Below are positions 15,358-52,010 of a stretch of DNA of 64,000 nt, in pieces (the first letter of the stretch is position 1; every line of letters starts with the position of its first letter). The notes beneath the pieces were generated by a model. It worked only from the letters and a program-made list of their open reading frames with translations. It did not search any database and was not told the origin of the DNA. The stretch is taken from assembly GCA_951640195.1 (NCBI GenBank), contig OX621171.1, positions 744,001-808,000 on the forward strand, written 5' to 3'. Source of the stretch: Porpolomopsis calyptriformis. Lineage: Eukaryota; Basidiomycota; Agaricomycetes; Agaricales; Hygrophoraceae. Position numbers and translations under genes: made by a program.

Positions 15358-16346
15358 TCAATGATGAAGACCCACATGAAGACTCGAATCACATGGGCCT
15401 CAACGGCGCGCAACTCGCAAGGCAAACTGCCTAACGATGATGACCAGGGAATGGCGCAGACGAGCGCCATCACTGATTCAGGTGTGCCATGTCACGACCT
15501 TAGCAACACCCAACGATGGCCAGCAATGGCTGTAAATTCACCCCAGAGTGAACGAAGACATCGTGCCAACTTAGATGATAGCAGTTCCCAACTCACAGAA
15601 AGAGAGGAGTCATCACCGACCACAAGTCAGCGTATAAGTATGACAATCGACCCTACACTTGATACATTAATGCACACCCTCACTGAGGGTCAAACAAGGA
15701 CAGGAGTCCCTTCCTCATCATGAAACCTGAATGAACAAGTATACATTCATCAGATGTTAAATCTATTACAGCGTAATGAAATAGATGATCAATATGAGTG
15801 ATGAGAACCATTGCCCACACCCAGTCAGATGTCGACAGTCACCCGTAATAAGAGACAACAAGAAAAGCACCTGCAGAATTGCGAGGCATCGAGCAAGATG
15901 CTCTCCGATGTAGTTGACAGGGTCAATGTACTTGTTCAGATGAGAATGGGTGGAATTAGTGGTGAGGAATTCATGAAGCTTGCCAATGACCTTAATAAGG
16001 TCATGGTGTGTAAGAATAGTGACAACACCCATTGAAATAAGATGGATACAACCATTTGTCCAGATAGGGATGAAGAAGACAAACTTCTGCAACAAGCAGA
16101 AGCTGAGCTTCGCCGTCCTTGACAAGAAGATGAGACGAGCTCCGTCTATCAGAGATGGCAAGCCGCAGCTGATCAAGTCGATAAACATCGACATGGAAGT
16201 AAGAAGAGGAACAACCAGAACAGGTCATTCGAACAAGAAAATGAAGCAGCCTTGAGACTGGGCACATTCACACTCAAGGACAGAGTGGCCATCCAAAGGT
16301 TGAGAAATGGCGATATCCGTGAAACCAGAAGATCTGGCCTGGATAA
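15358..16346 (+). pseudogene. E3 gag, N-terminal part
   Basis: One reading frame (phase 1) runs from the ATG at 15358 to the E1 insertion with a few stops (15721, 15799, 16036, 16120). The product is polar and Ser/Thr/Asp-rich at first. A helical part follows (VDRVNVLVQMRMGGISGEEF at about 15911-15970), then a charged region ending GDIRETRRSGLDND at the insertion point. The frame resumes on the far side of E1 with DQGITFDASGE at 33884, so the two halves were one gene. There is no start signal I can judge; 15358 is the first in-frame ATG after the LTR. Confidence 0.6.
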
Positions 16347-16954
16347 TGATACAACCCCTCCATCCCCTGAGCACCGTATATTTAACTATACAAATATTAG
16401 ATGCCTATCAAGTCCTCCGAACATGACCTCGAACCTTCCGAATGCCCCTGATAGCCCCCGAACACCCTGAATGAGTTCAAGATTCACCGAACTCTCCGAA
16501 TGCAATCGACGCTTTCTGAACGCAAATAAAAGTTTGTATATCAAAGGGAAGACACTATTCAAAGGCATCGATTCTCTTCTATTTCTCCCTTTTCATTTGA
16601 CTTCTTCATTTCCATTCACTACTTTCCCCTTAGATCATTAGAGAGGCTTCCCTTTTATTATATACACTCAAAGGGATCCTTGTACTAGAAGATATATATA
16701 CTGTATGTTGTAGCTAGTGATCCAACAAGTTAGATATTCGCTTCTCTCTCACTCTCAAGTCTAGATCCTTTCTAGATCTTCTAAGACTTCCTCTTTCAAT
16801 CTTCCGATTCTTCCGATTCCCCGATCAATTACATTTGCAAACAATTGAAGACTCCCTTTCCACAATTATCAATTATACACTGTGTCGAGACTCTTTATAG
16901 TCATCCTCACACCTTGTTCTGTGTTCGGTTCTCATACACGAAGCAGACGTATCA
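16347..16954 (+). repeat. E1 5' LTR
   Basis: The repeat starts TGATACAACCCCTCC and ends GCAGACGTATCA. A GATATATATACTGTATG stretch at about 16699 is a likely TATA box and is kept in all six copies. The divergence from the 3' LTR is heavy and mostly transitions. Confidence 0.93.
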
Positions 16955-21215: not shown

Positions 21216-21758
21216 TGTAGGAGATCCACTCTCCCTACAAACAGAAAACCTCTCCATCACACATGAGCTCAACCTCACCAAATCCATATACACATATCCC
21301 AAAAGCCCGACCCCTCCGACCTTCCAATAAACGTTCCGATAATGTCCGCCTCTAACCGGAGGACTTCCGAAACCACGAACTCCTTCGGAAACACCTCAAA
21401 CCGATCGGAAAGTCTCTTTTCTTTGTTTTCCTTATCTTATCTACCTTTTCCTATCTTCCTTTCACCTATCTACCTAATTTCCACTCACATATTCTTACAA
21501 AGGAACTATCCTTTGTACACATACCTACAAAGAAGTTCCTTTATTCACCTCCTCTATATATATCAAGTAGATAATCACTAAAGAAGACAGACACATCTTC
21601 CCCAATACATACCTTCCCTTCCTACCCAATATATCAAGCTTTCATAAGCTTGAAACCCCTGTCCATCATCATCTGATTACTGAATCAGTTCCTACTTGTT
21701 CCGATACCCCTTGGACGAACGAGAGGAATCTCCCCCAAGATCCCTCACGCCTTCTACA
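21216..21758 (+). repeat. E2 5' LTR
   Basis: The repeat starts TGTAGGAGATCCACTCTCC and ends CACGCCTTCTACA. It contains CTATATATATCAAG near 21553, a possible TATA element. A putative primer-binding site, ATTGGAGCCCACCGCGAGG, begins at 21761. Confidence 0.94.
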
Positions 21759-22056
21759 TAATTGGAGCCCACCGCGAGGGGTTCTAACACGTCTGCTTTT
21801 CAGTATTCTACCACTCCGCCGCTCCGCATGCCTCAACCGCTCTTCACAATCCTTACCTGTCCTCCCAACATCTACACCCACCTCTGACTCCTCGGACAAG
21901 CTCATTATCGAAGCCCTTATCAACCCCTCGACCTCAGCTTCCCTTCTCAACACCCCTTCGGAAGGAAACGTAGACCTTCCACCTGCAAGTAAAACACCCC
22001 TCACCACACGCCCCAACACCATACCTATTCCCACTCCTTCGACATCTTCCCCCGCC

Positions 22057-23979
22057 ATGGCCAACCCAGCCCGAATACCTTTCCGACACTCTTCCGGTGC
22101 CCCCGTCTTCGACGGAAACCCCACACACCTCAACCGATACTTCTCCGACATTGACATGATGTACACAACCCTCGGGATGAACCCTACTGATGAAGAACGA
22201 ATCACTCACACTCTGTATTTCCTAGACAACGATGTTGCTCTCCTTTGGGAAATGCTCTGCCCTGGAGTAACTAACCCCTGGACATGGAACTCCTTCAGAG
22301 ACGACATCCAAACACTCTACCCTGGTTCCAACACCAACAACACCCTGCACAACGTCGCAGACCTCGAACGATTCACTCAGGAAACTGCTTCCAAAGGGGT
22401 GTACACCTGAGGCGATCTAGGAGAGTACTTCCGAGAGTTCACCCAGATCTCATCCCACCTTTTACGGACCAACCGGATCGATCAACGGACCATCGACAGA
22501 TTATTTGCCCAAGGCTTCGGAATATCTACCCTGTACCGGATCGAACACAGACTATCCATCACCATGCCGAATCATCACCCCGACGAGCCATATCCCATGA
22601 AAGACATCAACAATGCCACCCAGTTCCTCCTTTGTTCCACTTCCCCAATCACTTCACTGCCACCCATCACCCCCACCACATCCTGCACAACCCCCAAAAC
22701 AGAGTCAAGTGATACCATCACCATGGCAAATCTCATGACCACCATGATGAAAAACCAAACCGATTGACCCCGGAATTACCCGACTCCAACGGAAACCCAC
22801 CCCCAACAGCAGATTAACCCGTGCATCTTTTGCGGATCTCTGAATTGTCGGATCCGGACATGTGTTATGGCCGAAGAGTTTATAAGAGCTGGGAAGTGCA
22901 TCCGGAACGATCGAAGACAAATGGTTCTCCCAAACGGCAACTACCTCCCTTGGGACATCACTGGCAACACCCTCTCAGAGAAATTCAACAATTGGCATGG
23001 TGCCAATCCTGGAAACCTCGCCTCACTGGCCCCCGTCGTCACTGCTGCCATCATTGAGATGATTCCCCCCTCAGATCCACATTCTATGTATGATACAACC
23101 ACCTCCCCACTCCCCTTCTTCCCGGAAGATATCCTGTCTTCATCCGAAGACGACAACACACTCACGGTCCTCCATACTATGCTCGGAAACGAGATCGCCA
23201 AAAAGGCAGAATGAAACAAGAACCAGAAAACCCCTCCTCCCAAACCTGGACCAACATCAAAACCCATCATCGAAATCCCGCCTTCTAACATACACAACCT
23301 GATCAAATCCGTTCCGACCCCACAACCCAAAGAACCCCAATTCCGGTTCCACTCTCCTGCCGAAGATCCAGTTCTGACGGACCAACTTTACAACAATGTC
23401 CTTGGAGCCACTGTCACCACCACAGTCGGACACCTCCTGGCATCACATTTGGATGTCCGGAAAAGGATCAAAGATCACACCACCAGCAAACGTATCCCCG
23501 TCAACCTATCGGACAACTCAGACGACCCTGTTTCTAGCTTCTATACCATGCCAAACTCACCCGACGAAGACACTATTGTAGCCGACGACGCCTCCGCCAT
23601 CTGAGTAATCGACGTCCTCCTAGACGGAAGACAGAAAGAGGAAGCACTCCTTGACACCGGAAGCGCGATAACCGTCATTCAGAAAGACGTCTGGGAACGA
23701 CTTGGTATCCCGATCCGATCTGATCTTATCATGCACATGGAGTCATCACACTCCACCATCGCCCCCACCCTAGGAGTTCTTAAAAACCTCCCGGTCGTCA
23801 TCAGACCCTGTACCTTCTACATGCAGGTGCAGGTAGCGGAAAAACTACCTTGTGATATGATTCTCGGACAACCTTTCTATCTCCTCACGAACCTAGATAG
23901 CAGGATCGATCCGGACAGCTCACAACACATCAACATCATGGATCCAAACACCGGAAAGAGGATTAAAGTATCTACATGA
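22057..23979 (+). pseudogene. E2 Gag-protease
   Basis: One frame (phase 1) runs through Gag and protease with four TGA stops (22408, 22765, 23211, 23604), each readable as a mutated CGA or TGG. The frame is open upstream to about 21880, so the true start may precede the ATG at 22057. Gag reads FDGNPTHLNRYFSDIDMM, LWEMLCPGVTNPWTWNSF and DDIQTLYPGS; a degenerate zinc knuckle starts PCIFCGS near 22819. The protease keeps its active site, ALLDTGSAITVIQKDVWERL (about 23648-23707), and LGQPFYLL. The stop TGA at 23977-23979 overlaps the ATG of the pol frame as ATGA. Confidence 0.85.
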
Positions 23980-26900
23980 CCACAAGCCCGGAAGCCCAAC
24001 AAGAAACTCGTCCCCACGGGTTTTTAAATGTTGAGAGTACGGATTATACCCAAACCCCTGTTCCGGTTCCCACACCTTCGCCATCTGTACTCTCGGGTCC
24101 TATTTCTTACCAAACTTTGATTCCACCGACGCCCTCCACACCCAACAACGTATCTGTTTCCCCACACATGACCTCTGTTTCCCCAACTCCCCTGAACAAC
24201 ATCATCCGCTCCCACATATCGGAACAATCCCAGAACAACCTAAACGACGATCACCCCTGCGGACAGGCAGCAACCTTCGACATCCCTCTCTCTGACATCC
24301 CAGACTCCCTTCTCACTCCCGTATCTGTACACGAGTCCTCCTTAGCTGATTATGTTGCAGATATCAATGAATATGATTACACTCATGCCACCTATGCCAG
24401 AAAGAAATATAAGAAAGTGGCGGACCGTGTCTTGCCTATCAAGGGAACGCTACCCGAAGAATTCTGCATCGTCTGACGTCAACACCATGATCTATTGGCT
24501 GACCTTCCATCACTTCCCTTCCATCCACCGCCATTTATGCCAGGCTCCGTTTACACCCAAGAACGGAAAGACAAGCACAATGTCAATCCCGACGGATTCC
24601 TATGGCCTGAAGAAGAAACCCTTGCCCACCACGTAATCAAAACCCAGGAACAAGCATTCGCCTGGGAGGAGACTGAGAAAGGTCGTTTTCTGGAAGAATT
24701 CTTCGACCTGATCCTCCTCCCCACTATAGAACACGTCCCTTGGGTTCTTAAAAACATTCCGATCCCACCCGGAATCTTTGACGCGGTCCTTAAAGTCATC
24801 CGCAAAAAGATTTCCGCTGGTGTGTACGAAGAGTCTAACTCATCCTATCGCTCCCAATGGTTCTGCGTGCTCAAGAAAGATGGGAAATCTCTCTGACTTG
24901 TCCACGATCTCAAACCCCTTAACAAAGTCTCAATCCGCGACTCCGCAGTTGCTCCACTCACAGAACAATTCGCGGAATCCTTCGCCGGAAGAGCCTGCCT
25001 GCTACGGGTCCCTCAACCTATTTGTATCCTTTGACCAATGCGACCTTGACCTCCGATCCCAAGACCTCACCACCTTCCAAACACCACTCGGGGCCAAACG
25101 TCTAACCTCTATTCCTATGGGATATACCAACTCAACACAAATTATGCATGGAGATGTCACCCACATCCTCCAAGCAGAAATCCCTCATGTTGCGAGCCCC
25201 TTCATAGACGACATACCTGTTAAAGGCCCGGAAACCCGTTACGAACTCCCGGGAGGACTCTTCGAGACTATTCCACAAAACCCGCACATCCGAAGGTTCG
25301 TAAGGGAACATCTCAACAACCTCAACCGAGTCCTTCACTAGATGAAAATCCTTGGCGGAACCTTCAACGGAAAGAAGACCACAGTATGTGCCCCCGCTGT
25401 TGTAGTCGTCAGACACATATGCTGTTATGAAGGAAGAATTCCGGATGAATCCCAAGTACAGAAGATCCGAGACTGGCCCATCTGCCAAGAGCTTACCCAC
25501 ATCCGATCTTTCTTAGGGACCTGCGGAGTCCTCCGAATCTTCATCAAAGACTTCGCGCATCACGCCCGACCCCTCGTAAATCTCACCAAAAAGGACGTCC
25601 CCTTCCGCTTCGAAGAAGAAGAAATCTGATCCATGGAAACCCTTAAAAACGCCATCATCAACTCCCCCGCTCTCAAACCTATCGATTACCACTCCGGATG
25701 ACCTGTCATTCTAGCTGTCGACTCATCCATGTATGCCGCCGGATTCATATTGCAACAACAGGGAGAAGATGGCAAGCGCTACCCATCCCAATTCAGATCA
25801 ATTACCTGGAACGAACGTGAGTCCCGATACTCACAAGCTAAGCTCGAACTATACGGACTATTCCACGCCCTCCAGGCATATCGAATATGGCTCATTGGTC
25901 TTCCGAAATTCACAGTAGAAGTCGATGCCAAATACATTAAAGGCATGCTCAACAATCCGGACATCCAGCCCAATGCAGCCATCAACTGATGGATAGCTGG
26001 AATCCTCCTATTCGACTTCGACCTTGTCCACATTCCTGCCCATCTACACTCCGGTCCCGATGGACTATCCCGAAGACCTCCCGCTCCTGAAGACGATCCC
26101 TCTGATGATGATCATGAGGAATGGATCGACTGATCCTATGCCTTTGCGGTAGAGCTTATCAACTGGAATCGACTTGAAATCGTCCCGAACCGTTCACACA
26201 TTGCATCACCTTACCTTTCTTCACTAAACAACCTCTCGGAACCTCCCACCTTCTCTGTCCTCACTGCTACAGACAGCCCACTACCCCTTCCTCGATCGGA
26301 AAAAGCCCTTTCACAAGACGCATACCTTCGGACCATTCATAACTTTCTTATCACCCGAAGATGCCCACCCGACACCTCGGACGAACAATATAAATGACTC
26401 CTACGCACCGCCTCCAACTTCTTTGATTCGATGACCGTCTCTGGCGCAAACGACCCAACAGAAGGCACCAGCTCATTATCCCGGAACCTCACAGACTGGA
26501 TATCATCCAGTAGGCTCATGACGGACTAGGCCATAAAGGCCCCTTTATCACCCAAAACCAATTACTTGACCGCTTCTAGTGGCCCTACATTGATCACAAC
26601 ATCCAATGGTTCATCCGAACTTGTCATCAATGTCAGATCCACCAAACCAAACGGATCTTCATCCCTCCGATGGTTCCCACACCTGCTCACCTATTCCGAC
26701 GTGCCCACATCGACACCATGTTCCTACCCAAGTCCAACGGCTATAAACTCCTTCTGCATGCCCGCTGTTCCCTCTCCGCTTATCCGGAATGGCGCCCGCT
26801 GAGAACAGAATCAGCTAGGGCTATCGGATCCTTCATTTCCGAAGAACTTCTATGTCGATGGGGTGCTCTTGAAGAGATAATCACAGACAATGGAGCCCCA

Positions 26901-27662
26901 TTCATCAAAGCACTTGAATACCTCACCGTGCAATACGGAATCAATCACATCCGAATCTCCCCATACAACTCCCAAGCGAATGGACTCATTGAGAGACCTC
27001 ATAGATCCGTCCGGGAAGCGCTCATGAAAGCTGCCGATGGTGTCGAATCCAAGTGGTACAACGTTCATCATTCCGTCCTATGGGCAGAACACGTATCTAT
27101 TCAAAGATCCACCGGATTCTCTCCTTACCGGATAGTCCACGGAACCGATCCTCTCTTTCCCTTCGATCTCACCCACGCTACCTTCCTAGTCCCACCGATG
27201 GATGCTCCGATCTCCCCAGCCAACCTACTGGCTATCCGAGCCCGTCAGCTTCAAAAACGAGAGGAAGACCTAGCCCAGATCAAGCAACGATTACTGGATT
27301 CACAATTTAAATCAATTCAGGATTTCGAGAAATGCCATGGAAAGCAAATCCGGGACTACAACTTTAAACCCGGAGCTCTCGTCCTCATCTGCAACTCTTC
27401 AACTGAACTGGAACTCAATCGAAAATCGAAGCCGCGATATCTAGGACCAATGCTCATCGTAAGACGAACCTCCCATAGCACCTACATCATTTCGGAACTT
27501 GACGGAGCAGTTTCCAAACTCCCGATCGCTGCCTTCTGCATTCTCCCGTACTTCCCCCGCTCGCATGCATCACTCCCGATCACACGGATCATCTCACAGA
27601 ATAACTCCTTGCCAGATGGACACGTCTCGGATGACTCCAATTCATCCTCGGAAACTGACTGA
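23976..27662 (+). pseudogene. E2 Pol (RT, RNase H, integrase)
   Basis: Pol starts at the ATG overlapping the protease stop. A Pro-rich spacer precedes RT, which reads FLWPEEETLAHHVIKTQEQ, SQWFCVLKKDGKSL, TTFQTPLGAKRLTSIPMGYT and FIDDIPVKGP (about 25201-25230), with both catalytic aspartates kept. RNase H shows VILAVDSSMYAAGFILQQQG and ELYGLFHALQAYRIWL. Integrase shows an H2C2 zinc region (GLGHKGPF...CHQCQIHQ), IDTMFLP, ITDNGAPF and NGLIERPHRS, then a GPY/F-like end (PRYLGPMLIVRR, CILPYFPR). The frame shifts near 24990 and 26450-26560. Integrase from 26670 to the stop at 27662 is uninterrupted, the longest intact frame in the window (330 codons). Confidence 0.9.
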
Positions 27663-27749
27663 CACATACTGGGACTTGTCCTTACTTACTCTCACTTAGC
27701 ACTCACCCTCTCGCTCATTTTCATCTAACTCCTTCACTATTCTGCTATT

Positions 27750-29080
27750 CTAAACAGGACTATTACATAGCCCATTTCTTCCCTTCCCCTTCTTTTCCAA
27801 CCCCTTTTCCATCCATACCATCAATCCATCCGTCTCGGCCCGCGCTCTCCTCCAACCCTCCAACGCCTCGGCTTCCCTCATAACGGCCTTTCGGACCGCG
27901 TTCCGCTTCTCCTCCAACCCCACTGCCCAATCCTCTACTGCCTTCTCCATCTTTCCCCCAATCTCCCGAAGCTCCGAGAGCCTCCGGTGCCCTTCCCGCA
28001 CCATCCCGCTGTCCACACTCGCCTGCCGTGCCCTCTTCCAGACACAGGTGTCCATCTCCTCCTCGCTCTCGCCCTTGTCTCCGCTCCGGTCCTCCTCACC
28101 CTCTGAATCCACAACCGTTACCTCCCTCACGTTCCCCTTCGTCTCCCCAGACCCCCGGACTCACCTTACTGGCCTCGGAACCGGCCTCGGAATCGCCTTC
28201 GGAGGCTGCTTCTGCCTTGGCTTTACCTCCATGCTCGCCTTCCGCTTCGACCCGCTGGACTTCGAACACAACGCGTGGTCCCGCGCACACAGACCACACG
28301 CCCCACCTCCTGGATACTTGATGCACAGGACCAGCGGCTTGGCACAGTGGTCGCATGCCGGCTCATGACACTAAAAATGTATATTAGATTATACACGCTA
28401 ATAAAAATAAAATAAAAAAAAACGACACTTACTTGCACGACGGATTTGACCTGTCTGCCCTTCTTCGACAATTCCTCCCCCGCCCCGACCTCATCCTCAC
28501 CATTCCCGACCCACTCCAACGTCTCCGTCGCTGTTCCCCCCCTCTCTGTCGTTATGACTGAAGGCTCCTCCGATGCCTTCAATCCGGCCCCCAACATCCT
28601 CTCCTGGCAGGCCCTCGCTCGTTCAACCCGCTCCCGCCTCTCCTTCTCCTCCTCCATCTTTTCCACCATCCTCTCCGCTGCCTCCTCGATCTCCCGCCTC
28701 TCCTCTGCGATTGCCTCGGCCTGCGCCTCTTCCTCTATCGCCCTTTCTTTCTCCTCCATCGCCTTCCTTTCTGCCTTCCACTGCTCCCCATGCTTCTCGT
28801 ACGCCTCGCTTATCTCCTCTGCAAGATCTTCCACCACTCAGGGAATCTCTTCCCCACCCTCTATCATCTCTGGGAGTCTCACTAAGAAGTTTGTCTGCAC
28901 AGTCTGATTAGTCCAGCGTCAAGACATATCAAATAAAAGACTTACCGCACGATCCGCGTTCTCCAGCACCCAGGTGTCGTACCCGGAGCTCTCTGGCCCC
29001 CCAGGACAGAGGACCGAGGCATCTTGAAGCTCGATAATCAGACTCTTGAAGTCTGTCAGTTCGTTGTCATTGGACATCAT
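27750..29080 (-). pseudogene. E2 antisense gene: coiled coil plus Zn2Cys6-like cluster
   Basis: Three exons can be read on minus: 29080-28946, 28903-28433 and 28370-27750, with GT-AG introns of 42 and 62 bp (GTAAGTCTTT...TAATCAG and GTAAGTGTCG...TTTTTAG) that keep the frame. The joined frame is 408 codons with two TGA codons (28840-28838 and 28163-28161). Exon 1 starts MMSNDNELTDFKSLIIELQD. Exon 2 is a long Glu/Lys/Arg coiled coil (QWKAERKAMEEKERAIEEE). Exon 3 opens with CDHCAKPLVLC and CGLCARDHALC, giving C-x2-C-x6-C-x8-C-x2-C-x6-C, then a basic stretch (SGSKRKA) and a second charged helix. The spacing fits Zn(II)2Cys6 DNA-binding clusters. Its stop lies 87 bp from the pol stop, tail to tail. 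Function unknown; a chromatin or element regulator is a guess. Confidence 0.8.
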
Positions 29081-29149
29081 TGAGGTAGTTGTTCAAGAGA
29101 AAAATGGTGACATGTCACATACAATCGCATGTAAAAACAGTCAACAAAA

Positions 29150-29157
29150 TCACGTGA
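29150..29157. promoter_or_regulatory. TCACGTGA palindrome upstream of the E2 antisense gene
   Basis: TCACGTGA (an E-box of the Cbf1/Pho4/USF type) lies 70 bp upstream of the antisense ATG and 55 bp before the 3' LTR, next to CAGTCAAC. E1 and E1-prime have the same palindrome and a nearby CAGTCAAC in the equivalent position. Regulatory use is inferred. Confidence 0.5.
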
Positions 29158-29212
29158 CTCGATTCTATTCCCGCACCAACCAGGGATGGCTGGTATCTAA
29201 CTGCCCCGGATA

Positions 29213-29755
29213 TGTAGGAGATCCACTCTCCCTACAAATGGAAAACCTCTCCATCACACACAAGCTCAACCTCACCAAATCCGTATACACATATCCCAAA
29301 AGCCCGACCCCTCTGACCTTCCGATAAACATTCCGATAATGTCCACCTCTAACCGGAGGACTTCCGAAACCACGAACTCCTTCAGAAACACCTCAAACCG
29401 ATCGGAAAGTCTCTTTTCTTTGTTTTCCTTATCTTATCTACCTTTTCCTATCTTCCTTTCACCTATCTACCTAATTTCTACTCACATATTCTTACAAAGG
29501 AACTATCCTTTGTACACATACCTACAAAGAAGTTCCTTTATTCACCTCCTCTATATATATCAAGTAGATAATCACTAAAGAAGACAGACACATCTTCCCC
29601 AATACATACCTTCCCTTCCTACCCAATATATCAAGCTTTCATAAGCTTGAAACCCCTGTCCATCATCATCTGATTACTGAATCAGTTCCTACGTGTTCCA
29701 ATACCCCTTGGACGAATGAGAGGAATCTCCCCCAAGATCCCTCACGCCTTCTACA
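29213..29755 (+). repeat. E2 3' LTR
   Basis: The 543-bp repeat is nearly identical to the 5' copy, with differences such as CCGACC/CTGACC and ACGTT/ACATT. It is followed by the target duplication ACGT and then resumed E1 coding. Confidence 0.94.
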
Positions 29756-31404
29756 ACGTTGCTGGTTCGAACCATGGTCCCAATGGTCTCTCTCAATGTC
29801 CCCGACAGCCCAATGACCAAGATGATGAAGAGCCGACTGATAAAGACTTCGACGATTGGATTGATCGCATCCATGGGTTAATGCACCATATCAATGATTC
29901 GCCTGCGCCCCGAATGAAAACCCTCCGAATGCCCACCTTAGTTTACTCGCAGAGTAAACATTTCAGTGAGGAGGAGGAGGACCCTATCTATCCATGTACC
30001 GATTCATACAACATCGTTCCATGATCAGAAGCAGCTCAGCAAAACGATCGACAACTTATCCTTGTTCAAAAATGGCTCTCAGATCTCGAACAACCGAGCA
30101 CCATGTCCGACAATGACTACGCAAGCTTTATACGATACTGCGAAGAGTTCTTCATCGACAACCACCAACTATGGTGAAAGGATAGACAAGGTGCTCATAA
30201 ATTAGTCATCGATCCGGATCGCCGATTAGCAATCATGACAGAACTTCACAATCGAACAGGCCACAAGGCTATCTTTGCTACCTGATCAATCGTTTCCGAA
30301 CATTTCTGGTAGCCTTATATAGCCCCCAACATAGTCTGGTTTGTTCAGATGTGTCATACCTGTCAGGTTCGCCAAACCACACAAGCCCTTGTCCCTCCGA
30401 CCATTTCCATGCCAGCTCCCCTATTTGCTAAAATCTACATCGACACTATGCACATGCCCTGATCTGGTCCATTTCGATATATAGTCCAAGGACGATGTTC
30501 CCTCACCCACTATCCCGAATTTCGAATGCTTCGATTGGAACCAGCGAAATCGATTGGCGAATGGATCTTCGAGGATATAATCTGCCACTGGGGCTCTCTT
30601 CAAGAAATTGTCATGGACAATGGAACAGCCTTCTTAGGAGCCATAGATTACCTCGCCAAGCACTATCGGATCAACCACATTCGCATCAGTGGATACAACT
30701 CTCATGCAAATGGAATAGTTGAATGATCTCACTTCGACATATGACAATTGCTATTCAAAGCTGTCGATGGCAATCAAAAGCAATGGTCGATTGGAGCCTA
30801 CTCTGTATTCTGGGCTGAACACGTTACTACCCGAAAGCAATTGGGATGCTCACCCTACTTTGCTGTCACTGGATCTCAGCTATTGCTTCCTCTAGATATT
30901 TCTGAAGCAACATATCTCCTTCCCACTCCAGATTCAGTTCTGTCAATGACTGATCTAATTTCGCAACGCGCAATTGCTCTACAGAAACGAGATGCTGATT
31001 TAGAGCAACTTTGATCGAAGGTTCTCACTGCTTGCCTACGATCTGCCATTCGATTCAAGAAAAGACACGAGAAGACCATTCGCGACTATGACTTCAAGAC
31101 TGGTGACCTTGTACTCATTCGGAACACAAAAATCGAGAAGTCCCTCAATCGGAAGATGCATCCTTGATACCTAGGACCCCTGGTCATGATATCTCGAAAC
31201 CTAGGGAAAGCTTATATCATCGCAGAGCTCGATGGATCCGTCTTACATTGCCTGATCACTGCATTTAGAGTCATCCCATACTTCGCCAGAAGATTGATCG
31301 CAATTCCCGAACGATTCCTCAACATATCAACTTCACGACTTAGAGACATGGAACGTTCGCTAGCTAGCGAACCACTCAATAGCATTGCGATCAAGGACTT
31401 GTAA
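29756..31404 (+). pseudogene. E1 integrase, 3' part of pol
   Basis: Coding resumes after E2 with SNHGPNGLSQCPRQPNDQDD (end of RNase H), an acidic linker HFSEEEEDPIYP, then the integrase zinc region (H-x-H around LHNRTGHKAIF, and CHTCQVRQ near 30354). The catalytic core reads IYIDTMHMP, VMDNGTAFLGAIDYLAKHY and NSHANGIVE. The C-terminal GPY/F-like module (YLGPLVMISRNLGKAYIIAEL, FRVIPYFARR) precedes the TAA at 31402-31404. Stops interrupt the frame at 30022, 30724, 31012 and elsewhere. The purine-rich bases coding SEEEEDP repeat the element's polypurine tract. Confidence 0.88.
29957..29976 (+). promoter_or_regulatory. Internal copy of the E1 polypurine tract
   Basis: Twenty bases, AACATTTCAGTGAGGAGGAG, are identical to 33251-33270, which abuts the 3' LTR. 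E1-prime keeps the pair (49321-49340 and 45929-45948, one mismatch). A central second plus-strand primer is a possible role. Confidence 0.45.
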
Positions 31405-31531
31405 CCTGCCATAATGAAACTCTATGCAATCTCTTTCATTTCAAGACTTTCTTTCATTTTTTAGAAACAAAAATACAAATTTTAGTGAAGAAAGACTAGA
31501 GGCTACAAAAATTATACAAGAACAAGTAAAT

Positions 31532-33103
31532 CTACAATTGGTCCAAGACCATTTCCTCTTCCTTCTCTTCTAAACCCCTTAGAATCTCTTCGAGAACAAT
31601 GATTCGCACTTTTATGTGCGCTTTCTCCTCCACGATCGCCGCCAACACCTCTCATGATTTCTCTTCATTGACTGCCTTCGCCTTCACCTTCCCTTTCCAA
31701 CCTGTAATTGGCCAAGTCATTTCCTTCGAGCCTTCACCCCCGTCTCCTCTTCAAAGGGCAGGGTCTCATCGATGTAGACTACTGGACCTATAGAAAAGAA
31801 GAGATTAGAAAAAGAAAAACGATAGAAAAAGAATTACTTATGAGATACGGCCCTCGCCGATTTCTGAACCCCCTTCTTTGACTCTTCCGCCGTCGCTGAC
31901 TTATTCGCACCCTTCAACTCCCCCTTGGGCCGTGGCTTGAATTTCTTCCCCAACTGCGTTTCCCCCTTCCAATAGCACCTGCGCTTGTCTGTTATGCACT
32001 TGGCACATAACGGATTGGCAGGGTCGATCTCGCATTCTGCCCTAACCTTTTTGCAAAAATCACACTATGAAATAAAGAAATCCATTAGTGAAACAAAAAT
32101 AAGATAAGAGAAAGAAACTTACTTTGCCCTTGACCAGGCGCAAAGTCTCCTCTACTGCCTTTTACTTGTGGTACTCCCACGTCATCATCACCAGAAGGGA
32201 TCATCCCTTCTCCACCATTCTCTCCTGATACGCCGCCTTCGACTTCTCCACCTTGTCTTCTGCAGTCAGCGATTACCCTGCTGCCACCAATTTGTCTTCA
32301 CCATCCAGGGGCTCGTGCCCATCCTCCGTCGTCTCCGTTGTCGCCCCCATTGTGTCTGGCATGTCTGCCGACACCTCCGCTGCCTTCGTTCCACTCTCAC
32401 CCACTGCCTTTTCTGTCTCTCGATGGAACTCCTCCTCATCGATTTTACTGTCCAGAAGCAACTGGAGGAGCCTTTCATAGGTCTCCTCCACCCGCTTCCG
32501 GCCCTCTGTGTCCTGTTCCTCCCATTCTCGTTCCTCCCGTACCTCTCGTTCCTGCTTCTCTCGCACCTCCCATTCTGCCCTCTCGACCCACTCGCACTCC
32601 TCTTGTTTCTCCTGTTCTTTGCACTCCACTCACTCTCATTCCTTGCGCTCGACCCTCTCTTGTTCCTCCCACACAGACATCTCCGCCCTCTCCCTCACCT
32701 TGCGTTCCTCTTCCGCCCTTCATTCCTGCTCGACTCTCTCCACCTCCACTTTCTCCTCAGCCTCGCGACATACCACCTCTGCCAATCTTGGCATCAGTAG
32801 CTCCCCAGCCTACCCCAACCATTCCTGTTCTTCGAAAACGTCAAAAGTCTCACAGGCCTCCTTTTGCCATGCAACGACCTCATCGTCCGTCAATGTTTGC
32901 TTCAGGGCCTTCACGACCTGATTATATGCAATCTAAGAGATGGATTAGTGAAGAAAAACAATTAAAATCATGAGACTTACCAGCAATTTGCAAAATTGTT
33001 GCCCCCAGACTTTATAGTCTTCAGGTTCAGCAACCCCATCTGGAAGCGACCTCATTTGGTCACAAATCTTCTGCTTCGCAATGGTAATAACATTTGTCAA
33101 CAT
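31532..33103 (-). pseudogene. E1 antisense gene: coiled coil plus Zn2Cys6-like cluster
   Basis: Minus-strand coding begins at the ATG at 33103 with ITIAKQKICDQMRSLPDG and CKLL at an intron donor. It passes through a very long Glu/Arg coiled coil (about 32900-32270: EREWEEQDTEGRKRVEETYE) and reaches an exon (about 32070-31850) with CDFCKKVRAECEIDP...CAKCITDKRRC. That is C-x2-C-x6-C-x8-C-x2-C-x6-C, as in E2. A last exon reads GPVVYIDETLPFEEE and ends EEKEEEMVLDQL at 31534-31532. Introns have GTAAGT- or GTAATT-type donors and pyrimidine-rich acceptors. Stops break several exons. The stop lies 127 bp from the pol stop on the other strand. E1-prime encodes the same protein at 46234-47763. Confidence 0.75.
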
Positions 33104-33194
33104 ATTTTGAATGGCTTGATGCAGATTCTTGACATCATGGTATGCAATTTCAAGACAGTTGTGTCTGAAGAAGAATGTTAACACAGTTGTCACA

Positions 33195-33234
33195 CTTATA
33201 AATGCGCCTCAGCAATTACTGGCAAATCACGTGA
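33195..33234 (-). promoter_or_regulatory. Putative promoter of the E1 antisense gene
   Basis: On minus, TCACGTGA (33234-33227) is followed by TTTATAAG (33202-33195), about 90 bp before the ATG at 33103. E1-prime has both motifs with a 134-bp insertion between them. This reads as an E-box plus TATA element. Confidence 0.5.
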
Positions 33235-33261
33235 TTGACTGAGGACAGTCAACATTTCAGT

Positions 33262-33271
33262 GAGGAGGAGA
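33262..33271 (+). promoter_or_regulatory. E1 polypurine tract
   Basis: GAGGAGGAGA directly precedes the 3' LTR and is the expected primer for plus-strand DNA synthesis. E1-prime has the same bases on minus at 45937-45928. Confidence 0.75.
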
Positions 33272-33879
33272 TGATACAACCCCTCCATCCCCTGAGCACC
33301 GTATATTCAACTATACAAATATTAGACACCTATCAAGTCCTTCAAACACGACCTTGAACCTTCTGAACGCCCCCAATAGCTCCTGAATGTCCCAAATGAG
33401 TTCGAGATTCATCGAACTCTCTGAACGCAATCGACGCTTTCCGAATGCGAATGAAAGTTTGTATATCAAAGGGAAGACACTATTCAAAGGCATTGATTCT
33501 CTGCTATTTCTCCCTTTTCATTTGACTTCTTCATTTCCATTCACTACTTTCCCCTTAGATTATTAGAGAGGCTCCCCTTTTATCATATACACTTAAAGGG
33601 ATCCTTGTACTAGAAGATATATATACTGTATATTGTAGCTAGTGACCCAATAAGTTAGATATTCGCTTCTCTTTCACCCTTGAGCCTAGACCCTTCCTAG
33701 ACCTCCTAAGACTCCCCCTTCCAACCTCCCGATCCACCTGATCCCCCAACCGACCACATTCGCAAATGACCGAAGACCCCCTTCCCACAATTATTGATCA
33801 TACACTGTATCGAGACTCTTTATAGTCATTCTCACACCTTGTTCTGTGTTCGGTTCTCATACACGAAGCAGACGTATCA
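33272..33879 (+). repeat. E1 3' LTR
   Basis: This 608-bp copy starts TGATACAACCCC and ends GACGTATCA. Between about 33670 and 33790 it carries many C where all five other copies have T. The target duplication copy ATGA follows. Confidence 0.93.
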
Positions 33880-43614: not shown

Positions 43615-45290
43615 CTCCCCCTTGATGAGACAACTCTGCTACTTCTTCAATCCCAACCTTTCTAATATCTCCAACACCTTCACTTTACTCAAGGCCTTGG
43701 TCAAGATATCTGCAGGCATAGCATCTGTCCTTAGGTGGATCAACTTGATGGTTCCCTTCTCCACTTCATTCCTCAACCAGTAAAAGCGCAAGTCCAGATG
43801 CTTCATACGTCCATGGTGTTCTAGATTTTTGGCAACAGACAAGGCAGATTAGTTATCAATGAACAGAGTAGAAGGGGATGTGAATTGGTAGCCAAGTTCA
43901 GTGAACAGATTTCTCAACCATAGGATTTCTTGACTAGCTGCAGTAGCTGCAACATACTCTGCTTCAGTGGTGGATAGTGCAACTATAGCCTGGAGTCGAC
44001 TAGACCAACTGATAGCACCAGTACCCATCTTGACTATATAGCCTCCAGTGGAATGTCCATTATCAGGATTGCCAGCATAGTCAGTATCAGTATAAGTGGT
44101 GAATATTTCAGATGGGTTGGAAAGTGGTGAGTAGGTTAATTTGAAGTCAAGAGAGCCTTTGAGGTAACGGAAGAGATGTTTGATAGCTTTCCAATGCTGC
44201 ATGCCAGGGTTCTTACTGAAGCAGGCTAAGACACCAACAGTATAAGAGATATCTGGTCGAGTAGCTGTGGCCAAGTACATTAATGAACCAACAGCTTGGA
44301 GGTATGGGATGGACTGCATTTCTTCAATCTCTTTAGAGGAAGTGGGAGACATGGATGTGCTGAGTTTGATGCTAGGATCAAGAGGAGTGCCAACTGGGTT
44401 GCAATCAGAGAGGTTAAAGTGTTTAAGCAAGTCAAGGATATATTGGCGCTGAGACAATGATAAGGAGTGTGCAGAACGATTCCGAGTGATTTCAACACCC
44501 AGCAGCCATGAAGTAGTTCCAAGGTCACATAGTTGGAAGTACTTCCTAAGTTCATCCTTAACATGAGCAATCTCTGCAGTAGACTTTGCAGCAATAGTCA
44601 TATCATCAATAAAGACTGGCACTATGATGTGCACATCATCCCTCTTGTAGATCCAGATACTATGTTCACAGGTAATTCTCGTGAAGCCCATCTTCTCAAA
44701 GACCTCATTGAGTTTCTTGTGCCAACACCTGCCAGCCTACTTTAAGCCATAGATAGATTTGAGCAAGTGCCAGACCCAGTGATTGCCCTTCTCAACAAAG
44801 CCTTCTTGCTGGCACATATAGACCTCTTCTTCAAGTTCACCATTGAGGTAAGCTGAAGAGATATCAAGACTTTCTAATTCAAGGTCTTCAAGTGCAGCCA
44901 GTGCTAGGATAGCTTGGAGTGAAGCCCACTTTGGAGTAGGAGCAAAGGTCTCAGTATAGTCAAATCCAGGTCTCTAGGCAAATCCTTGGGCCACCACTCT
45001 GCCTCTATAGCGCTCAATGGATCCATCAGCTTTCCTTTTGACCTTGAACACCCATTGGCTGCTAATAGCTTTGCGGCCAGGTGGGAGTTGTACAAGTTCA
45101 AAGGTGCCATTTTCAATAAGTTTTTGGATCTCATATAAAGCAGCCTTGTGCCATTCTTCCTTCTCTTCAGGGGAGCGCTGCATTGCCTTATGGTATGTGT
45201 TAGGTTCACCATCATGAGTACCTGGCAATCTGAGTCCAATGTCAAACATGCTTAAGAACTAGTCGATGAGTTTCACACTCTCAACCTGAA
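43615..45290 (-). pseudogene. Ty1/copia pol fragment (RT and RNase H)
   Basis: Minus-strand coding reads MFDIGLRLPGTHDGEPNTYH, AISSQWVFKVKRKADGSIER (start of copia RT), ESLDISSAYLNGELEEEVYM, FIDDMTIAAKS (where copia RT has its D-D pair), LGTTSWLLGVEITRNRSAHS and IPYLQAVGSLMYLATATRPD. RNase H follows with TDTDYAGNPDNGHSTGGYIV, ALSTTEAEYVAATAASQEIL, and the end LRTDAMPADILTKAL. Stops sit near 44975, 44740 and 43848. The gag, protease and integrase half is missing: the sequence upstream of about 45290 is not copia, and E1-prime follows. It is a 5'-truncated copy. Confidence 0.9.
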
Positions 45291-45327
45291 ATAACTAGCT
45301 TCTTAACTTCAAATTCGAGTGATCCGA

Positions 45328-45927
45328 TGATATGTCCACTTTGTGTATGAGAACCAAACACAGAACAAGGTGTGAGGATGACTATAAAGAGTCTCGGCAC
45401 AGTCCATAATCGATGATTGTAGAAAGGAAGTCTTCAATCATTCACGAATGTGATTGATTGGGGGATCAGGAGAATCAAAAGAGGAAGTTGAGAAGAAGTC
45501 TTAGAGGATCTAGACTCGAGAGTGAGAGAGAAACAAATATCTAACTTGTTAGATCACTAGCTACAATATACAGTATATATATCTTCTAGTACAAGGATCC
45601 CTTTGAGTGTATATGATAAAAGGGGAGCCCCTCTAATGATCTAAGGGGAAAGTAGTGAATGGGAATGAAGAAGTCAAATAAAAAGGGAGAAATAGAAGAG
45701 AAATAATGCCTTTGAATAGTATCTTCCCTTTGATATACAAACTTTCATTTGCGTTTAGAAAGCTTCAATTGCGTTCAGAGAGTTCAATGATTCTTGAACT
45801 CATTCGGGACATTCGGGAGCTTTCAGGGGCATTCAGAGGGTTTGGGTTTGTGTTCAAAGGACTTGATAGGCGTCTAGTATTTGTATAGTTGAATATATGG
45901 TGCTCAGGGGATAGAGGGGTTATATTA
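45328..45927 (-). repeat. E1-prime 3' LTR
   Basis: On plus it runs TGATATGTCC...GGTTATATTA, so the outer base pairs include two C-to-T changes against the GTATCA consensus. It abuts the polypurine tract (TCTCCTCCTC on plus) at 45928. Confidence 0.92.
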
Positions 45928-45964
45928 TCTCCTCCTCACTGAAATGTTGACTGTCCTCAGTCAA

Positions 45965-46143
45965 TCACGTGATTTGCTGGTAATTGCCAAGGTGCATTTA
46001 TTGTTGGAGAAATGGTTTGTACCTTGTTGAGCTCGTGAGGCAAACACATGAAGAAGTACAAGGTAATGACGAGTATTTATGTACAAGTGCATAGACCAGT
46101 ATCTACAGAGCACTGACGCTCATCCAAAACCAACATTTATAAG
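45965..46143 (+). promoter_or_regulatory. Putative promoter of the E1-prime antisense gene
   Basis: TCACGTGA at 45965-45972 and TTTATAAG at 46136-46143 precede the ATG at 46234. In E1 they lie about 25 bp apart; here a 134-bp insertion separates them. Confidence 0.5.
46002..46135. mobile_element. 134-bp solo mini-LTR-like insertion
   Basis: The insert begins TGTTGGAGAA and ends CCAACA, with inverted TGTTGG/CCAACA ends, and is flanked by a perfect 5-bp duplication TTTAT (45997-46001 and 46136-46140). E1 lacks it: there the bases read GCATTTATAAGTGTG straight through. Size and ends suggest a miniature LTR retroelement (TRIM) solo LTR. Confidence 0.8.
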
Positions 46144-46233
46144 TGTGACAACTGTGTCACATTCCTCTTCAGACACAACTGTCTTCCAAATTGTATACCA
46201 CAATGCCAAGAAAACCACATCAAGTCTTTCAAG

Positions 46234-47763
46234 ATGTCAAAGAATGTAATAACTATTGCAAAACAGAAGATCAGTGACCAGATGAAGTTGCTTCCAGATG
46301 GGGTTGCTGAGCCTGAAGATTACAAAATCTGGGGGCAACAGTTCTGCAAGTTACTAGTAAGTCTCATGTTTTTAATCATTTTTCTTCACTAATCCATCTC
46401 TTTAGATCGCATATAATTAGGTCGTGAAGGCCCTGAAAGAGACATCAATGGACAACGAGGTTATCACATGGCAAAAGGAGGCCCGCAAGACCTTCAATGC
46501 TTTTGAAGAATGAGGGTGGATGGAGTGGGTGGGGGAGATGTTGATGCCAAGACTGGCAGAGGTGGTGCATCGGGAGGTCGAAGAGAAAGCGGAGGCAGAG
46601 AGGGTAGAGTGAGAGCGAGCAGAGCGCGAAGAATGGGAGAAACGAGAGGAATGCAAGCAGGTCGGGAGGGCGGAATGGGAGGTGCAAGAGAAGCGCGAGT
46701 GGGTCAAGAGGGTGGAACAGGAGGTGCGAGAGAAGTGGGAGTGAGAAGAATGGGAGGAATGGGAGTAGGAGGTACAAGACATGGAGGACCAGAAGCAGGT
46801 GGAGGAAGCCTATGAGAGGCTCCTCCAGCTGCTTCTGGACCAAAAGATCGATGAGGAGGAGTTCCATTGAGAAATGGAAAAGGTGGCAGGCAAAGGTGGA
46901 CTGAAGGCAGTGGAGGTGTTGGCAGACATGCCAGACACAACGGGGGCAACAACAGAGATGACGGAGGATAGGCACCAGCTCTTGGACGGTGAAGAAGAGT
47001 CGGCAGCAGCAGCGCAATTGCTGACTGCCAAGGAAACCATAGAAAGGTCGAAGGCAGCCTATCGGGAGAGGATGGCAGAGAAGGGTTGGTCCCTTCCAGT
47101 GATGATAATGCAGGAGTACCACAAGCAAAAAGCAATGGAGGAAACCCTGCACCCAGTCGAGGGCAAGGTAAGTTCTTTTCTCTTTTCTCTTATTTTTGTT
47201 TTACTAATGGACTCTTTTATTTCATAGTGTGATTTTTGCGAAAAGGTCAGCACTGAGTGCAAGATCAACCCTGCCAATCCATTATGTGTCAAGTGTGTAA
47301 TGGATAAGTGTGGATGCTATTGGAAGGGGGAAATGCAGCTAGGCAAGAAGTTCAAGCTGCAGCCCAAGGCAGAATTGAAGAGTGCAAACAAGTCAGTGAT
47401 GGTGGGAGGATTGTCAAAGGGGGTTCGGAAATTAGCGAGGGCTGTGTCTCATAAGTTTTTCTTTTTCTATTGTTTTCTTTATTCTTTCTAACTAATTCTT
47501 TTCCAGGTCCTGTGGTTTATATCGATGAGACCCTGCCCTTGGAGGAGGAGAAGGTGGGTGAGAGTTCAAAGGGAATGACATGGTCGATCGCAGGTTAGAA
47601 AGGAAAGGCAAAGGCAGTGGCTGCTGATGAAGACAAGTTGCGAGAGGTTTTAGCAGCAATCATGGAGGAGAAAGCATGTGTAAAGGTATAGATCGTCATT
47701 CTCCAAGAGATTTTAAGGGGTTTAGAAGAGAAGGAAGAGGAAATGGTCTTGGACCAATTGTAG
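46234..47763 (+). pseudogene. E1-prime antisense gene: coiled coil plus Zn2Cys6-like cluster
   Basis: The frame starts MSKNVITIAKQKISDQMK and runs to CKLL at a GTAAGT donor. The next exon (about 46430-47168) is a coiled coil (EWEKREECKQVGRAEWEVQE; AYERLLQLLLDQKIDEEEFH) followed by DMPDTTGATTEMTEDRHQLL and an intron (GTAAGTTC...TTTCATAG). The third exon opens CDFCEKVSTEC and CVKCVMDKCGC, again C-x2-C-x6-C-x8-C-x2-C-x6-C, with basic residues after it. The last exon reads PVVYIDETLPLEEE and ends EEMVLDQL-stop at 47763. The pol stop on minus is at 47893-47895, 129 bp away. Stops are few (TAG, TGA) and the cysteines are all kept. Confidence 0.78.
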
Positions 47764-47892
47764 ATTTTTATTTGTCTTGTATAATTTTGTAGCCTCTAGT
47801 CTTCTCCTCTTTAAAATTGTATTTTTGTTTCTAAAAAAAATAAAAGAAAGACTTGAAATGAAAAAGATTGCATAGAGATTTATTACAGCAGG

Positions 47893-49626
47893 TTACAAGT
47901 CCTCGATCACAACGCTATCAAGTGGTTCGCTAGTTAGCAAATGTTCCATGTCTCTAAGTCGTGAAGTCGATATGTCAAGGAATCATTCGGGAATTGCAAT
48001 CAATCTTCAAGTGAAGTATGGGATAACTCTAAACACAGTGATCAGACGATGTAAGATGGATCTATCAAGCTCTGTGATGATATAAGCTTTTCCTAGGTTT
48101 CAGGATATCACGACTAGGGGTCCTAGGTATCGAGGATGCATCTTTCAATTGAGAGACTTCTTGATCTTCATGTTCTGAATGAGTATGAGATTGCCAGTTT
48201 TGAAGTTGTAGTCACGAATGGTCTTTTTGTGTCTCTTCTCAAATCGTATGGTGGATCATAGGTGAGCAGCGAGCACCTTTAATCGAAGTTGCTCTAAGTT
48301 AGTGTCTCATTTTTGTAGAGCAATCATGCGTTGCGATATTAGATCAGTCATTGAGAGAACTGAATCTGGAGCAGGAAGGAGATATATTGCTTCAGAAATA
48401 TTTAAAGGAAGCAATGGCTGTAATCCAGTGACAGCAAAATAGGGTGAGCATCCCAATTGCTTTCGGGTAGTGACATGCTCAGCCCAGAATACAGAGTAGG
48501 CTCTGATCAACCATTGTTTCTGATCGCCATTGACAGCTTTGAATACTGATTGTCGTACATCAAAGAGAGATCATTCAACTATTCTGTTCACTTGAGAGTT
48601 GTATCCACTGATGTGAATGTGGTTGATTCGATAGCACTTGGTGAGGTGATCTACAGCTCGTAAGAAGGCTGTTCCATTGTCTGTGATGATTTCTTGAAGA
48701 GAGCCCCAGTGACAGATTATATCCTTGAAGATCCATTTGCCAATTGATTTCACTGTTTCTGAATGAAGCATTCGGAATTTGGGATAGTGGGTGAGGGAGC
48801 ATCATCCTTGGACTATATATTAAAAAGGACTAGATCAGGGCATATGCATAGTGTCGATGTAGATTTTGGTGAATAGGGGAGCTGGCATGGAGATGGTTGG
48901 AGGAATGAGGGCTTGCGTGGTTTGGCGGACCTGACAGGTATAACATGTCCGAATGAACCAGACTATGTCGGGGGCTATATAAGGCCACCAGAAATGTTCA
49001 GAAACAATCGATTGAGTAGTGAAAATGGCCTTGTAGCCTGTTCGATCGTGAAGTTCTATCATGATCACTAATTGGCGATCCAGATCAATGACTAATTTAT
49101 GAGCGCCTTGTCTATCTTTTTGCCATAGTTGGTCATTGTTGATAAAGAACTCTTCGCAGTATCGTATAAAGCTCACGTAGTCATTGTCAGACATGTTGCT
49201 TGGTCGTTTGAGATCTGAGAGCCATTTTCAAATGAGGATAAGTCATTGATTGACTTGTTGAGCTGCTTCCGATTGTGGAATGATGTTGTAGGAATCAGTA
49301 TGTGGATGGATAGGGTCCTCCTCCTCCTCACTGGAATGTTTACTCTGCGAGTAAACTGAGGTTGGCGATTGGAGGGTTTTCGTTCGGGGTGTGGGCAAAT
49401 TGTTGATATGGTGCATTAATCTGTGGACACAATTGATCCAATTGTTGAAGTCTTTATCAATCAGCTCTTCGTCGTTTTGGTCATCAGGCTGTTGGGGGCA
49501 TCGAGAGAGACCATTGGGACCATGGTTCAATCCAGTAATGTGTACCAAGGTAAAATGGAATGTTAGGATCACTACAATCCATCTGTTAATACTAGCCTGG
49601 GGTGTGATGTCTGGGTTCACTAGCAT
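47893..49626 (-). pseudogene. E1-prime integrase region of pol
   Basis: The minus strand carries ASINRWIVVILTFHFTLVHI, NHGPNGLSRCPQQPDDQND, an acidic HSSEEEEDPIHP, the zinc region ending CYTCQVRQ, IYIDTMHMP, ITDNGTAFLRAVDHLTKCY and NSQVNRIVE. The end matches the E1 GPY/F-like module. Several stops interrupt. Read through here, the site that E2 occupies in E1 is intact (LVHITGLNHGPNG, about 49560-49520). Confidence 0.87.
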
Positions 49627-51260: not shown

Positions 51261-51279
51261 GTGGATTGCCAAGGATTTT

Positions 51280-52010
51280 TCAGATTATTCGGAATTTATT
51301 AGGGAGTTCAGCTACTACGGAGTGAACTTTCTTTAACACAGGTTTGTATTTCTTTTTTGATGCAAGGAAGGTTGCAATTTCCATCAATTGATGGAGACAG
51401 TCGGAATCGGAAGGTCGATCACTAGTCAATTGAGATTTAGAGATAAGGTTGGGAAGGTCACAAGTAGATAAATAAGCATGGGAAACTGTTGAAACTTTAT
51501 TTGATATGTGTAAAGATGCACAGGAATTGACAGATAGCATAGATGTAGCGTGGTCGTAATCTAGAATTATTGTGATCTCTCCTTGATCGGGAATCAAATC
51601 CTCAATGAGAGAAAATCTGAACAATGTTTTGGTAGACCTTGTGGAACTGTCAGAATCGTGACAGTCCTTCTGCTATTCGGATCGCAAATAGTGATCATCT
51701 GGTTTTCATCAGTGAAATTCTTGACAAGGCTTTGTGCTAACATGTCAAACAGTCTTCCAAGCAATATATTGTAGGTGGGAGCATAAATAACATGGATCTG
51801 AAGGTAGAGGGTTATGTTGCTGATCTGACAGGGGATGTTCCTCGTGAGACCTAAAGATTGGTCTATTTTGCCATTGGCCGATTGCATGTTGAGTTGAATA
51901 GTTAGGTCATAGATTAGCCCTAGATCATGGCAAATGGCTTTGGACATAGCAATTATCTGAGATCCAGGATTGATGATACATTCAATTGTTTCTTTATGAT
52001 TGATCAACAT
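51280..52010 (-). pseudogene. E1-prime aspartic protease-like region
   Basis: The minus frame reads IECIINPGSQIIAMSKAICH, NMQSANGKIDQSLGLTRNIP and ILLGRLFDMLAQSLV, then FSLIEDLIPDQGEITIILDY. As in E1, the expected active-site Asp is Asn (NPGS). The following segment to 51280 (KKYKPVLKKVHSVVAELPNK) links to RT. Confidence 0.75.

Follow-up and report, generated by a model that had tools for sequence, protein, structure and literature searches.

An intron-containing antisense gene with a zinc-cluster-like cysteine array in two gypsy families of Porpolomopsis calyptriformis, and a paralogue among host genes

The antisense gene and the elements that carry it

In a stretch of 64,000 nt of the Porpolomopsis calyptriformis genome (the window; the genome searched comprises 33.5 Mb in 17 contigs), three copies of long terminal repeat (LTR) retroelements carry an intron-containing gene on the strand opposite to pol, whose product has six regularly spaced cysteines. 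Two of the copies, E1 and E1-prime, belong to one family and the third, E2, to another. We favor, with some reserve, the reading that E1 and E2 carry a spliced antisense accessory gene for a zinc-cluster-like nuclear regulator, and that this gene has been exchanged with the host. An earlier sequence-only reading of the window had placed the ends of the E1 and E1-prime genes without any error, and those of the E2 gene (27763-29077) with an error of at most 13 bases. The features are the following:

16346-16952, plus strand: 5' LTR of E1, from LTR alignment
about 33271-33879, plus strand: 3' LTR of E1, from LTR alignment
about 21216-29755: E2, nested inside E1
near 45327-54546: E1-prime, in reversed orientation
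26580-27662, plus strand: C-terminal part of E2 pol (integrase), convergent with the antisense gene; Pfam integrase matches below the cut-off in this copy
33104-33270, minus strand: putative antisense promoter of E1, with TTATAAG 108 nt and CACGTG 140 nt ahead of the ATG
32981-33103, minus strand: E1 exon 1, start codon at 33103
32933-32980, minus strand: E1 intron 1, GTAAGT..TTAG, 48 nt
32123-32932, minus strand: E1 exon 2, ER/K-rich charged helix, with a basic stretch at its end just ahead of the array
32065-32122, minus strand: E1 intron 2, GT-AG, phase 0, abutting the first cysteine
31842-32064, minus strand: E1 exon 3, array at 31975-32064, then a basic tail
31788-31841, minus strand: E1 intron 3, phase 1, donor AT in the window copy
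31532-31787, minus strand: E1 exon 4, encoding the coiled-coil-like helix at the C-terminus, with the stop at 31532; the window copy has a frameshift here
46234-46356, plus strand: E1-prime exon 1
46406-47167, plus strand: E1-prime exon 2
47228-47450, plus strand: E1-prime exon 3, array at 47228-47317
47507-47763, plus strand: E1-prime exon 4
28946-29077, minus strand: E2 exon 1
28895-28945, minus strand: E2 intron 1, GT-AG, phase 0
28433-28894, minus strand: E2 exon 2, charged helix
28371-28432, minus strand: E2 intron 2, GT-AG, phase 0
27763-28370, minus strand: E2 exon 3, array at 28266-28355, basic tail and C-terminal helix, stop TAA at 27763

The exon-intron anatomy of E1 was established from 22 aligned copies, namely the window E1, E1-prime and 20 fetched loci (L009-L028), the latter being the best-scoring matches and not a random sample. 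It consists of exons of 123, 762-834, 220-223 and 256-263 nt (one truncated match aside), separated by two phase-0 introns, one following codon 41 and one directly ahead of the first cysteine, and by a phase-1 intron that comes after the basic tail; the three vary in length (48-51, 57-85 and 43-60 nt, respectively). The E2 gene, modeled on eight copies (L029-L036, the first being the window copy), has three exons and two introns, and its first intron is like that of E1 in being of phase 0 and in following 44 codons, compared to 41. The claim of short GT-AG introns that keep the frame holds for E2, in which 16 of 16 introns are GT-AG, and for 84 of the 88 E1 exon lengths (the truncated match being one of the four failures); it fails at 8 of the 66 E1 donor sites, which are AT (58 GT), among them the third intron of both the window E1 and E1-prime, all 66 acceptors being AG. 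Under the common exon model, each of the three window copies is a pseudogene: E1 has 12 stops, and its exon 4 is frameshifted; E1-prime has nine stops (end stop included); and E2 has two stops and one frameshift. After predicted splicing, just one of the 22 E1 copies (468 amino acids) and none of the eight E2 copies is uninterrupted, which weighs against the favored reading.

The antisense gene is a regular component of both families with a fixed position. Genome-wide, 87 E1-type array matches merge to 82 loci (including one match at E 0.14 and the host paralogue described below), at 74 of which an E1 pol tail converges on the array from no more than 3 kb away. Conversely, the array is missing at 3 of 84 E1 pol-tail pieces, which were hand-picked from 125 matches and merge to 77 places. 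E2-type arrays have a convergent pol at 16 of 21 loci, at a spacing of 513-548 nt in 15 and of 748 nt in one (23 pol-tail pieces, hand-picked from 121 matches). All these locus counts are lower bounds. Hits thus lie mainly inside elements, and the proposed arrangement, antisense between pol and the 3' LTR and tail to tail with pol, was found both in the window copies, where the LTR-side position was established, and in the locus counts. The idea that the eight E1-type loci without nearby pol are free host genes was rejected for the group: among the five that were read, three (L040-L042) have sequence of the E1 LTR together with stop-bearing copies of the gene, one (L043) is a decayed relic and only L039 is a host paralogue, while at two of the three unread loci an E1 pol tail lies 7.5-8.2 kb away.

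Integrase homology, paired LTRs and a polypurine tract (GAGGAGGAG) directly before the 3' LTR of E1 place E1 and E2 as two related families of Ty3/gypsy, a class assignment made on these features and not on a reverse-transcriptase tree. A pol query against a protein database yields 1116 integrase relatives with E values no higher than 1e-10 (PF17921 in 106 of the 120 listed), among them proteins of Armillaria ostoyae and Mycena citricolor with 66% identity. That the two families are distinct, as had been proposed, is seen in their arrays (28% identity over 47 residues) and pol tails (50% over 119 residues). The notion of several gypsy families with this gene stands for these two and not for a third gypsy family, E3, recognized by a 1425-amino-acid open frame around its pol tail at two loci (L037 and L038, at C7:403300 and C13:855300, 99.6% identical across 3182 nt). 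The E3 pol tail shares 37% identity with that of E1 and 46% with that of E2, and sense open reading frames (ORFs) without Pfam match (640-1224 and 1369-2088 in L037) lie downstream of it; in the two copies read they take the place of the array gene, which counts against the favored reading. One E1 copy (L019) has an insert of ~1 kb near the start of the antisense gene (roughly 4080-5140), the beginning of which looks, by eye, like a part of L037 close to the end of E3, perhaps an E3 LTR.

The LTR pair of E1 is 88.3% identical over 607 aligned sites, with just 2 transversions. By eye, the differences in the alignment of the E1 gene copies are mostly CpG to TpG/CpA transitions, and the E1-prime gene has an observed/expected ratio of CpG of 0.43, the L013 locus one of 1.38. 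These CpG transitions point to decay through cytosine methylation or to a mutation process directed at CpG. Two further reading frames were noted, a minus-strand ORF at 43849-44736 of the window, presumably encoding a reverse transcriptase and RNase H of Ty1/copia type, and a 490-amino-acid ORF adjoining an E1 copy (L016:310-1782), which we take to resemble PIF1-like helicases.

Purifying selection on the antisense coding frame

Ratios of nonsynonymous to synonymous change (dN/dS) were estimated from transversions only, leaving aside the strong transition decay of the copies. Across 21 E1 copies (L019 was dropped for its insertion), first, second and third codon positions have transversion diversities of 0.016, 0.018 and 0.038, and introns one of 0.076. 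The dN/dS of the antisense gene is 0.30 in E1 vs. 1.7 and 1.0 in the two other frames of the same strand, and 0.30 in E2 with 1.8 and 2.0 in the control frames. For E1 pol it is 0.12, estimated on the 19 copies matched over >900 bases. Among the four E1 exons, the cysteine exon (exon 3) has the lowest value, 0.18. The coding frame of the antisense gene is under purifying selection in both families, and the expectation that its dN/dS would not be near 1 was borne out over the copies used, most of them non-intact.

That codon bias or decay opened an antisense frame where there is no gene is a reading we regard as extremely improbable. It can draw on the GC-rich, Glu/Arg-rich sequence of exon 2, which opens several frames and in which stops are less frequent in the reverse frames (0.8-1.2) than in the coding frame (1.5). 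Further observations count against the favored reading: in E1 exon 1 one reverse frame has a lower dN/dS (0.29) than the coding frame (0.36), which is set apart there by its stops alone (0.12 vs. at least 2.5 per 100 codons); in exon 4 two reverse frames equal the coding frame in stops; and E2 exon 2 gives a dN/dS of 1.33, from very few transversions. An artefact is opposed by the in-frame indels and conserved splice sites, by the intact paralogue with two matching introns, and by the six-frame test per exon, in which low dN/dS is limited to the coding frame in E1 exons 2, 3 and 4 (0.33, 0.18 and 0.33, the next-lowest frames having 0.80, 0.79 and 0.76).

The cysteine array and the predicted protein

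A scan of the window in six frames found the pattern C-x2-C-x6-C-x8-C-x2-C-x6-C in exactly three genes, those of E1, E1-prime and E2, just as the identical spacing had been read from the sequence. A looser six-cysteine pattern gave no additional stop-free site in the window, and neither pattern revealed an array in E4, a further element that had been listed with the three. In codon-shuffled windows the pattern arose in 0 of 100 cases. It occurs at 19 of the 20 fetched E1 loci and at all eight E2 loci, one of them with an internal stop.

Zn(II)2Cys6 clusters (PF00172) have the spacing C-x2-C-x6-C-x5-12-C-x2-C-x6-8-C, a pattern that fits nine clusters of the same genome. With the Gal4/PUT3-type factors of this class the element arrays share the cysteine spacing and a weak profile match; they differ in remaining under the Pfam cut-off and in the missing basic patch, and the host paralogue departs from the canonical spacing. 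A number of results speak against a full Zn(II)2Cys6 identity. The gathering score of the Pfam Zn_clus model (21 bits) was reached neither by an E2 exon (L030, 16.2 bits) nor by an E1 exon (L013, no match), and the 21 genome matches to Zn_clus that were listed all lie outside the E1 and E2 arrays. Between the second and third cysteines, nine Zn_clus clusters of the genome have three to five Lys/Arg (20 of the 21 matches were fetched, of which nine had a usable full in-frame array, ten had none and one was mis-parsed), whereas the element arrays (n = 27) have one at 20 loci and two at seven, the window E1 copy with three being an exception. In favor of the identity, the 14 PDB matches of the array profile include PUT3 and GAL4, aligned along the entire array but at E 0.39-3. 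Ranked above these two were a designed protein, at E 0.031, and L34, a ribosomal protein, from E 0.28, and the E1 exon alone matched only a proteinase inhibitor (E 2.6). Profile comparison with the Zn_clus arrays of the genome gave a probability of 73% for E1 and E2 jointly, 50% for E1 and 17% for E2. AlphaFold models of the arrays, built from the window sequences, were poor (mean predicted local distance difference test scores of 60 and 55), and a fold search with one of them returned a single match at E 9.5, which we treat as no evidence. Since the Zn_clus score is not reached, the profile match is weak, the basic patch is missing and the structure models are uninformative, we call the array zinc-cluster-like; of the Zn(II)2Cys6 identity proposed earlier, the cysteine spacing stands and the Pfam score and basic patch do not. 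Elsewhere in the genome, three Zn_clus matches lie on one strand within 3 kb (contig C10, 1028184-1031037), perhaps a small cluster of true Zn2Cys6 genes.

The array had also been described as flanked by long coiled coils, which applies to the C-terminal helix (I/L/M/V/F at 6 of 8 a/d positions) and not to the first, ER/K-charged one. Because residues 99-196 of E1 consist to 71-86% of D/E/K/R per 28-residue window and have I/L/M/V/F at only 1-2 of 8 a/d positions, we read this part as a charged single helix without a clear coiled coil. Between the two E1 helices lie a basic stretch, the six-cysteine array and a Lys-rich tail. The N-terminal halves of the E1, E2 and host proteins show no similarity above chance, a further point against the favored reading.

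The predicted protein would thus be composed of a charged helix, a basic stretch, a six-cysteine cluster, a Lys-rich tail and a C-terminal coiled coil, and by analogy to plant antisense proteins and to HBZ of human T-cell leukemia virus type 1 (HTLV-1) it would most likely act as a nuclear dimeric regulator of the element's own chromatin or transcription, by activation or by relief of silencing. A rather unlikely alternative is a real and selected gene whose product has no regulatory role: the cysteines would form a structural zinc module, and the accessory protein might, for instance, help to assemble particles, to bring the preintegration complex into the nucleus or to target integration. 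The absent basic patch would suit such a module, as would the ER/K-rich helix, which is more like a structural rod than a classic coiled coil, and nuclear import and a role in retrotransposition are named as options in the excerpted text of a plant review (PMC7264820). It is countered by the exact binuclear spacing in both families, by the Lys-rich tail and coiled coil, which suit a nuclear dimer, and by the host paralogue, which stands without gag or pol and therefore implies a function beyond the particle.

Upstream of the antisense start codon, TTATAAG is present in 6 of 6 and CACGTG in 4 of 6 E1 copies examined (six of the 21 copies, after a strict start-codon filter), and in E2 CACGTG or a one-transition variant of it lies near -80 in 7 of 8 copies. 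The motif TCACGTGATT was noted upstream of both window genes, its CACGTG 140 nt (E1) and 79 nt (E2) before the start codon. The TATA-like and CACGTG motifs suggest that a separate antisense mRNA may start between the start codon and the polypurine tract and run toward pol, to be spliced and translated. Reverse transcriptase would copy RNA of the complementary strand, on which the introns go unread, and they would thereby be retained; this logic of intron survival, already part of the sequence-only reading, fits the data.

A host paralogue and the origin of the gene

The locus L039 (contig C3) contains an intact, single-copy paralogue of 327 amino acids among host genes, with four exons and three introns, all GT-AG, two of which match those of E1. 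A query with its second half found only itself and the element arrays in the genome. On one side of it lie a Dus gene and a CUE-like gene, the latter narrowly missing the Pfam cut-off, and on the other a Peptidase_M20 gene; the surrounding 11.5 kb contain no similarity to the E1 or E2 LTRs, the E1-prime or E2 internal regions, the E3 end or E1 pol. L039 and E1 have in common a phase-0 intron at the first cysteine and a phase-1 intron that follows the tail; the first intron of L039 (phase 1) is unlike that of the element genes. Over the 47 array residues the host protein is 43% identical to E1 and 30% to E2, and its C-terminal helix is similar to that of E1 at z = 9.6 (0 of 1000 shuffles). Its array has eight residues between the second and third cysteines (C-x2-C-x8-C), a departure from the canonical spacing.

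The antisense gene thus appears to have passed between element and host. As the introns traveled along, the transfer would have occurred as DNA or as unspliced antisense RNA. Both directions remain, because three sequences cannot be rooted. Capture, in which an ancestral gypsy element took up the host gene in antisense, introns included, through read-through or recombination, is a serious possibility that we would stop short of calling probable. Introns 2 and 3 match in position and phase, as expected of unspliced copying, and the gene is absent from both copies read of E3, which belongs to the same wider group; besides the unrooted comparison, capture has against it that E1 and E2 share an intron 1 where the host gene has another, which requires the gain, loss or shift of one intron or more. 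We are somewhat more doubtful about domestication, in which the host gene is a former accessory gene of the E1 lineage that now serves the host, possibly by restraining elements. The position, orientation and two phase-0 introns common to E1 and E2 suggest an accessory gene that predates their split, and the host gene, intact and among ordinary genes, is nearer to E1 than to E2. Its deviating array spacing and different first intron speak against this, as does the lack of any remaining element in the 11.5 kb read around it, and the short array holds little signal.

Searches with proteins of other species returned no relative of the E1 array region (102 candidates) or of the host paralogue (3249 candidates), and viral contigs gave none with the array and nothing with an Armillaria integrase query. 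The failure to find array relatives, where those of pol are abundant, weighs against the favored reading. Fungi are represented in the database, since the pol control found Armillaria ostoyae and Mycena citricolor, but the protein searches are a weak negative because candidates must share exact words and the E1 search was limited to 0.55-1.75 times 468 residues, a length filter that shut out single-exon predictions.

Antisense accessory genes as such are already known. In the excerpts available of PMC7264820 and PMC11963269, those of the plant gypsy elements Grande and Retand are similar to the E1/E2 gene in position, orientation, presence in most copies and conservation; regulatory roles have been proposed for them, as has a nuclear or DNA-related role resembling the one proposed here, and an own promoter is reported for the Grande gene (PMC7264820). 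Compared by description only, they differ from the genes here in the latter's three or two introns and six-cysteine cluster, and the main text of the Retand paper contains the word "intron" 0 times. The additional antisense gene brtn of Boty-like elements of Botrytis cinerea (Zhao et al., 2011, as cited in the excerpted PMC7264820 and PMC8365987) is, likened by this mention alone, another antisense extra gene in a fungal gypsy element. HBZ of HTLV-1 is antisense, near the 3' LTR, produced in spliced and unspliced forms and a nuclear bZIP-type regulator (PMC10186651, in excerpt); it is an analogy only, as it has a bZIP in place of a zinc cluster and its promoter within the 3' LTR. Titles and the beginnings of abstracts of open-licence papers contained no intron-containing antisense gene or Zn2Cys6 gene in fungal LTR elements. 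As we found no fungal report of them for such a gene, the introns, the zinc-cluster-like array and the host paralogue would be what is new here.

LTR elements are expected to lose the introns of sense genes in each cycle. A selected gene with several introns in two families fits an escape from this loss on the antisense strand, which may therefore be a route by which intron-containing genes move between host and element. It is tempting, if speculative and in our view improbable, to extend the favored reading of an exchanged regulator to an interacting pair, in which the element's version would serve expression or anti-silencing and the host's would regulate or restrain elements, the antisense strand being a compartment that tolerates the introns of host genes. 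The origin and function of antisense accessory genes are described as unknown in the excerpts of PMC7264820 and PMC11963269; the host paralogue of P. calyptriformis makes both of them testable.

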